A DNA stretch of 64,000 nucleotides from an uncultured Bradyrhizobium sp. (GTDB lineage: Bacteria; Pseudomonadota; Alphaproteobacteria; Rhizobiales; Xanthobacteraceae), in NCBI RefSeq assembly GCF_947648125.1, contig NZ_CANSMR010000015.1, positions 1 through 64,000 of the forward strand. The letters run 5' to 3'. Made by a program: the position numbers and the translations under genes. Below the pieces are notes generated by a model that saw nothing but the letters and a program-made list of their open reading frames with translations, did no database searches and was not told where the DNA came from. Below are positions 41,168 to 42,343 of this stretch, piece by piece. Numbering within the stretch: position 1 is the stretch's first letter; each line of letters starts with the position of its first letter.

Positions 41168-42343
41168 TCAGGCCCGGCTGAACAACCTGGCTGCGTCGTC
41201 CACCGCCTGCCGCGCGGCGGCGAGATCCGGCGTCTCGTTGTCGTCGTTGAAGCCGAAATAATCATTTTCGCCGACCGGCTGGACGACGATGCCGTCGCGC
41301 CGGCCGAGGACGCTGAGGTTGCGGTAGAAGACGCCGTAATTGACATCCGGCTGGGGAATGAGCCAGGCGATCTGGCCACGCACCGGAACGATGCTCTCGT
41401 CATGAAACAACGCACGGGCACCATAGCCGGTGCAGTTGACAATGACGGTTTCGCGGATCTTCGAAAGATCGGACGGCGAGTGCAATTCGATCGGCGCGAA
41501 CAGTCCCCCGGCGCGCTGAAACTCCGCTTCGAGCTGACGGTAGAGATCCGTGACGTTGTAGGTGAGAGAGGCGCTCTTCCAGGCGTATGGCGCGGGAAAC
41601 GGATTCGATCCGGCGGCCAGCAAGTCCCATCGCGGCGTCAGCGACCTGATCCGGCCGCGCAATTCGAGGAATTTGTTCTGGCCCTCGCCCGAGGCATGCT
41701 GACGCCGGTGCGGACGGCCGTCGGCGTCGGGCGCATCGTCGGAGAGTAGATAGCGATCGGTCCATTCGATCGGATTGCCGGCAAGGCCGAGATAGCTTTG
41801 ATGGGTGGCAAAGGTCGCACGCGCCATCCGCTCCCAGCGGTCGGCAAAGTCCGGCGCGACATCTGCTTCCATCGCGATCCGCGAATCCGGCGACCAGTCC
41901 CCGGTCGCACGCGCCGAGCGGACCTGGGGGAAGCGCTCCTTGGCGTAGATCGTGACAGTCGCGCCCATCCTCTGGGCGGTGATCGCGGTCGTCAGACCGA
42001 TCGCGCCGGCGCCGAGGACGGCAATGTTACGCGCGCTCAATTGCAGGGCGAGCGGCACGGCCTCCTGCGCGGCGCCCCAGGACAGCGACCAGCCGCTGCC
42101 GCCGTGCCCGTAATTGTGGACGACATATTTGCTGTCGATCCACTCCGCTTCGATGCGCGGACCGGCGGCGCGGAACGGACGCAGGCATACGGTGACACGA
42201 AACATGCGATCCGGACGCGCAAGGACAGGCCGGAGCGCGGGTGCGTCGACGAAGGCAGCGTTGTCGGCAACACCACGCGTTGAAATGCCCGCGACCGCAG
42301 CGCTCGCCAGGCCGCCGCCGAGAAATGTTCGACGGTTGAACAT
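41168..42343 (-). CDS. Tat-exported D-amino-acid-oxidase-like FAD protein with permuted motif order
   Basis: MFNRRTFLGGGLASAAVAGI is a Tat signal (NRRTFLGG), so a folded flavoprotein would be exported. In animal and yeast DAAO the order is Rossmann GxGxxG, then NCTG and RGQ, then RPxR and HNYGHGG at the C-terminus. Here RPFR (55-58) and HNYGHGG (76-82) come first, then the Rossmann motif GAGAIG (111-116), NCTG (303-306) and RGQ (322-324). The chain ends at residue 391 where DAAO would enter the RPxR segment. That is the order a circular permutation gives. It probably oxidises a D-amino acid or similar amine; the substrate is unknown. Confidence 0.85.
   Translation of the reverse strand: MFNRRTFLGGGLASAAVAGISTRGVADNAAFVDAPALRPVLARPDRMFRVTVCLRPFRAAGPRIEAEWIDSKYVVHNYGHGGSGWSLSWGAAQEAVPLALQLSARNIAVLGAGAIGLTTAITAQRMGATVTIYAKERFPQVRSARATGDWSPDSRIAMEADVAPDFADRWERMARATFATHQSYLGLAGNPIEWTDRYLLSDDAPDADGRPHRRQHASGEGQNKFLELRGRIRSLTPRWDLLAAGSNPFPAPYAWKSASLTYNVTDLYRQLEAEFQRAGGLFAPIELHSPSDLSKIRETVIVNCTGYGARALFHDESIVPVRGQIAWLIPQPDVNYGVFYRNLSVLGRRDGIVVQPVGENDYFGFNDDNETPDLAAARQAVDDAARLFSRA

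Follow-up and report, generated by a model that had tools for sequence, protein, structure and literature searches.

The window analysed here is a stretch of 64,000 nucleotides from an uncultured Bradyrhizobium sp. (contig NZ_CANSMR010000015.1, assembly GCF_947648125.1). On its reverse strand lies a gene for a protein related to D-amino-acid oxidase (DAAO), a textbook flavoenzyme. The protein (Table 1) has the Rossmann GxGxxG motif together with the domain of the DAO family that binds flavin adenine dinucleotide (FAD), the RPxR motif with R55 as the equivalent of pig DAAO R283, which we take to be the substrate-carboxylate arginine, and the HNYGHGG loop, presumably the FAD-contact loop of DAAO. 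These elements do not follow the canonical order, in which GxGxxG is N-terminal and RPxR and HNYGHGG are C-terminal, and S344 stands at the place of pig Y228, which we assume to be the active-site tyrosine. As judged from sequence comparisons and a structure model, the protein is probably a natural circular permutant within the DAAO/DASPO branch of the DAO flavoprotein superfamily, and it is predicted to be an amino-acid-type oxidase and to be exported by the twin-arginine (Tat) pathway.

Table 1. Features of the gene and its product (positions are those of the window, residues those of the window protein).
Feature	Position	Strand	Basis
Gene of permuted DAAO-fold flavoprotein, 391 residues plus stop	41168..42343	-	translation; orthologues under purifying selection
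Twin-arginine signal peptide (predicted), residues about 1-28, RR at 4-5	42260..42343	-	sequence; PF10518 below cut-off
Transposed segment, residues about 42-102, corresponding to DAAO C-terminal segment (pig about 270-330)	42038..42220	-	phmmer and profile alignments; rotation scan
RPFR (55-58); R55 aligned to pig DAAO R283	42170..42181	-	rotated-profile alignment
HNYGHGG (76-82)	42098..42118	-	translation, phmmer, alignment A1; FAD-contact role presumed
Helix 88-100, corresponding to last helix of DAAO; residues 101-105 join the Rossmann strand	42044..42082	-	model; rotation optimum 97-109
GAGAIG (111-116), Rossmann FAD-binding glycines, corresponding to DAAO N-terminus	41996..42013	-	translation, profile match
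NCTG (303-306)	41426..41437	-	translation, alignments
RGQ (322-324)	41372..41380	-	translation, alignments
S344, at place of pig DAAO Y228	41312..41314	-	alignment, read by eye
New C-terminal helix (374-389); in DAAO it precedes the strand into RPxR	41177..41224	-	model, profile match, structure search

A sequence-only reading of the window had claimed that RPFR and HNYGHGG lie ahead of the Rossmann glycines. Translation bears this out, the residue numbers given for RPFR, HNYGHGG, GAGAIG, NCTG and RGQ being all correct, and so do the pieces in which the gene matches the Pfam DAO profile: its downstream part covers profile positions 2-299 (58 bits) and its upstream part positions 248-350 (23.5 bits, which alone is below the cut-off). 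The overlap at 248-299 is probably spurious because the second match begins 5' of the ATG. Likewise, single-sequence phmmer searches align residues 48-99 with the C-terminal segment of DAAO/DASPO chains, and the stretches around the Rossmann glycines and NCTG with the N-terminal and middle segments of these chains. The native-order profile A1, built from 11 family members, aligns with the DASPO structure 6rkf over residues 107-378 on 11-267 and 52-105 on 280-336, and matches 16 of 17 DAAO/DASPO sequences in two stretches. When the front segment is transferred to the end (profile A4, nine members), all 17 are matched in a single stretch that reaches the C-terminal helix region in 16 (1c0i ends at 301). 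The 17 do not amount to as many independent tests, since most represent the human or the pig enzyme in variant form.

The window protein in its mature form (residues 36-391) was then scored in all 356 rotations against a profile built from eight conventional DAAO-like proteins of prokaryotes. Starting at residue 103, the best rotation covers profile positions 8-318 of 323 with 131.8 bits, only 13 rotations (starts 97-109) come within 3 bits of it, and the top single piece in native order scores 70.2 bits. Three of four other members behave like the window protein, and for two conventional controls, both of them members of the profile, the best rotation is at their own start or at most one residue away. 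The claim that the chain ends where DAAO enters RPxR is right as to the approximate place; the end is, however, the helix before that strand (pig residue about 269), and the strand leading into RPxR belongs to the front segment.

A structure prediction from the single sequence was too poor (pLDDT, predicted local distance difference test, 35.7) and was set aside for a model built on alignment A3 (predicted template modelling score, pTM, 0.86). The strands and helix of the front segment keep the C-terminal order of DAAO in this model, which implies that the segment probably occupies the DAAO C-terminal place. When Foldseek matches were re-aligned, residues 105-390 matched folds of the DAO superfamily with a coverage complementary to that of the front segment, and no fold from outside the superfamily was among the 50 structure matches listed.

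The sequence-only reading had also half remembered a bacterial family with the same motif order, and homologue searches show that it exists. With the window protein at 1e-3, 19 of 60 related genomes gave matches; just six of these were long permuted matches, and the others covered little beyond the Rossmann part. The permuted order was found in all 12 named genome-contig loci (Bradyrhizobium, Sphingobium, Asticcacaulis and a Pseudomonadales metagenome-assembled genome). Profile A1 at 1e-15 matched 15 of 385 genomes of the window's class and 20 of 398 of its phylum, both counts taking in the window's own genome and sharing four others; by kinship code all matching genomes except one (G626) are of the window's class. 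Plasmid-borne members occur in Kozakia, Niveispirillum, Rhizobium, Bradyrhizobium elkanii, Mesorhizobium (a broken copy) and the actinomycete Nonomuraea. HxYGH is followed by the Rossmann glycines within 60 residues in all 45 homologues compared and preceded by RPxR in 44 of them. An assembly artefact or chance motif matches, for which we found no supporting point, would have to yield the identical order in 45 of 45 homologues and 12 of 12 named loci, and we regard this explanation as practically negligible. HNYGHGG alone is not diagnostic since it also occurs, without the other motifs in order, in a large viral-contig protein (L108, L111, L120).

Circular permutation, as the sequence-only reading had proposed, is supported as the best explanation of the two-piece match in native order, the one-piece match after rotation, the sharp rotation optimum and the fixed order in the 45 homologues. 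A number of results weigh against the overall interpretation. The gain from joining the pieces is small, the native pieces summing to 127.6 bits against 131.8 bits for the rotated protein in the rotation scan, and the total for 6rkf rises merely from 141.2 to 144.3 bits as two pieces become one; for 7ct4 rotation of the single sequence, a weaker test, even lowers the total from 67.3 to 62.9 bits, though the match becomes longer. One member, L020, has no optimum in the rotation scan and its pieces are not joined, probably due to its C-terminal extension; another, L091, has RPFL instead of RPxR. Two of the five structure models reached a pLDDT of just 63.6 and 66.0. As to function, the window gene shows no evident catabolic neighbours, its flanking ORFs (open reading frames) being read as HflX and MgtE, a CxxCH motif occurs in ORFs within four genes in only 3 of 41 loci, a cytochrome c being identified solely at Kozakia, and a tyrosine at the Y228 place is found in just one of the 26 members of clade A, the clade of the window protein.

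The same arrangement could in principle have arisen as a chimaera, if a DAAO C-terminal fragment had been fused ahead of a second DAO protein whose original C-terminus was lost afterwards. Permutations often arise through fusion with subsequent loss, a course that would give a product of the same look, and no intermediate was seen that separates the two routes. DAAO and DASPO are, however, among the best relatives of both pieces, and no homologue carries both copies: a second YGH motif, and with it the second C-terminal HNYGHGG named beforehand as a refuting result, was seen in none of the 45 sequences. We therefore consider a chimaera unlikely. A copy in Mesorhizobium onobrychidis annotated as two overlapping coding sequences (L159 5929-6992) was considered as a split-gene intermediate and rejected, as the break, located just past the Rossmann glycines, has the appearance of a frameshift.

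In an unrooted tree of the 45 permuted homologues, rotated, and the eight conventional prokaryotic proteins (no eukaryotes), the permuted proteins lie on one side of a branch with a support of 99/94; without p_L088, c_Halo and c_Mlent the split is 44 against 6 with a support of 100/100. Weak Rossmann-only matches, the Bradyrhizobium orthologues L002 and L027-L033, the broken Mesorhizobium gene, L083 (same place as L069), the truncated L105 and L107 (same protein as L106) were left out. The tree thus fits a single permutation event, the conventional set being small. The homologues form clades A (26 members, including the window protein), B (6), D (4) and C (8). One very divergent homologue, L088, with RPMR and HNYGHGG, sits apart on a branch of about 4.5 and its place is unsure.

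The N-terminus of the window protein, MFNRRTFLGGGLASAAVAG, resembles a twin-arginine leader. Of the claimed Tat signal the twin-arginine motif is indeed present; the match of residues 1-19 to Pfam TAT_signal (PF10518) remains at 18.1 bits, below the cut-off of 22.7. Since the new N-terminus bears this motif, the protein is probably exported via Tat to the periplasm, having folded around FAD in the cytoplasm beforehand. By a rule of our own (an RR motif followed by a stretch with a mean hydropathy of about 1.2 or more) Tat-like signals are found in 23/26 members of clade A, 6/6 of B, 4/4 of D, 2/8 of C and not in L088 (0/1), and therefore permutation is not tied to export. One of the three clade A members lacking such a signal, L079, lies at a contig end.

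Which reaction would such a protein catalyse? R55, P56 and the FAD motifs are invariant in alignment A1. Taken with the fold, R55 and the FAD motifs speak for an amino-acid-like substrate that is oxidised. That this activity is D-amino-acid oxidation is less certain than the fold, as an equivalent of Y228 is lacking in the window's clade. In clades B, C and D all 18 members have the tyrosine; the counts for clades A-D, which include L158 and L106, were read by eye since a script pattern mislocated 11 of 45 rows. Also by eye, the GHGG loop of clade A is followed by a GWSL signature, and other residues take the place of GGT. With the Y228 tyrosine and the GGT motif lost, the substrate of the window's clade probably differs from that of classical DAAO. 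The alternative that the protein is a permuted flavoenzyme other than a D-amino-acid oxidase, acting on another substrate (an N-substituted amino acid, an opine or a cell-wall fragment) or as a dehydrogenase, thus has to be taken seriously, even if we hold it to be somewhat less than evenly probable. Points in its favour are that 25 of the 26 members of clade A have lost the tyrosine, that GGT is replaced and that a new signature has appeared around GWSL; opine and L-proline dehydrogenases match the model too, at lower Z (15.6 and less). Against it stand the retained R55 and FAD motifs and the variation of an active-site tyrosine, taken by us as the Y228 equivalent or a neighbour, among the DAAOs treated in passages of PMC9844085. 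A catalytically dead exported flavoprotein, to which the lost tyrosine might equally point, is hard to reconcile with the invariant residues and with strong purifying selection on the gene (ratios of nonsynonymous to synonymous substitution rates, dN/dS, of 0.04-0.10 in 7/7 comparisons with Bradyrhizobium orthologues), and is in our view very improbable. On balance, amino-acid oxidation in a broad sense appears the likelier activity.

For a permuted DAAO the following picture emerges. As the sequence and in part the model show, a linker of some five residues connects the old termini, the last helix and the first Rossmann strand, and the chain is newly opened between the last helix of the substrate domain and the strand into RPxR. 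The Tat signal on the new N-terminus would direct the protein, folded around FAD in the cytoplasm, to the periplasm. There R55 would fix an amino-acid-like substrate by its carboxylate above the flavin, to which a hydride would pass from the alpha carbon; hydrolysis of the imino acid would yield a 2-oxo acid along with ammonia, and oxygen or a periplasmic cytochrome might reoxidise the flavin.

The window protein differs from DAAO/DASPO of known structure (pig 1an9 and 1kif, human DASPO 6rkf, Rasamsonia 7ct4) in having their C-terminal segment at its N-terminus, in its Tat signal and in lacking a Y228 equivalent. Conventional prokaryotic DAAO-like proteins (Streptomyces, Tsukamurella, Nocardia, Mycobacterium lentiflavum and the haloarchaeal Halostagnicola) share by eye the RPxR and GHGGxG signatures, which PMC9844085 gives for bacterial DAAO, and the rotated window protein fits their profile; they differ in their conventional order and their position opposite the 99/94 branch, and the five with an annotated start show no twin-arginine leader by eye. 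One conventional-order DAAO-like protein on a haloarchaeal plasmid (L166 1090-2268) adjoins an asparaginase. Glycine oxidase and the opine and proline dehydrogenases have the fold of residues 105-390 in common at lower Z (14.5-15.6), and the sole glycine-oxidase-type match to profile A1 (6j38) covers just profile positions 102-152. The permuted FMN-bind1 proteins, as far as portions of PMC11334425 describe them, are likewise extracytosolic flavoproteins with a predicted circular permutation but have an unrelated fold and a flavin attached by ApbE.

Among titles and abstract beginnings of the open-licence literature we found no description of a circularly permuted DAAO, which does not prove absence, and no word starting with 'permut' occurs in the main text of PMC9844085. 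According to passages of that paper, cloning and description had been achieved for just three bacterial DAAOs, and the bacterial genes known earlier, slightly more than ten, were all from 'Acinetobacteria' (as printed; read by us as Actinobacteria), its own table adding others. A natural permuted family in Pseudomonadota, if true, would fill part of this gap; ordinary searches show it as two weak pieces. When at most five candidates per genome of this phylum were scored for conventional DAAO with the rotated profile at 1e-15, 20 of 398 genomes matched, all 20 in two pieces; because of this limit and of weak collinear Vibrio matches among plasmids (about 25-26% identity), absence of conventional DAAO from the phylum is not established. 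It is a tentative scenario, with not quite an even chance of being right, that one ancient permutation of DAAO founded a separate bacterial family which is the main close DAAO relative in Pseudomonadota, reached an actinomycete, carries Tat signals in three of its four clades and has a thiamine-diphosphate enzyme as partner in the fourth, the active site of the window's clade having changed for a new periplasmic substrate. The family suggests that the termini of the DAAO fold can be relocated and a Tat signal placed on the new one, and it would offer protein engineers a natural test example.

ORFs read as HflX and MgtE also flank the gene in the three Bradyrhizobium loci checked. A conserved operon around clade A was not found among 126 neighbour ORFs of 23 loci called with a rough gene caller of our own. 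Five of the 126, in three genera, match 2-hydroxyacid dehydrogenase and four Peptidase_S9. The 2-hydroxyacid dehydrogenase count is no more than a hint because such genes are numerous in the ten genomes checked and 123 families were screened. At Kozakia, the permuted gene is preceded by two serine hydrolases, of which one matches Pfam Beta-lactamase, by a conventional DAO protein and by an alpha/beta hydrolase similar to a Peptidase_S9 protein of L075; the cytochrome c lies downstream, and it looks as if this cluster were fit for periplasmic peptide breakdown. Beyond the cytochrome c, the same plasmid cluster (L068 1643-14063) continues with a CocE/NonD hydrolase and a TonB receptor.

Of three rhizobial plasmids, two have the clade C member between a berberine-bridge-type (BBE) FAD protein and a thiamine-diphosphate enzyme; on the third, that of the broken Mesorhizobium gene, and in Nonomuraea the thiamine-diphosphate enzyme alone is present, and at L070 the FAD protein. 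Judged by gene content, the BBE-type protein, the permuted protein and the thiamine-diphosphate enzyme look like a small mobile pathway. Such clade C neighbourhoods are found at L157 4485-8711, L158 4366-8693 and L156 7240-8850.
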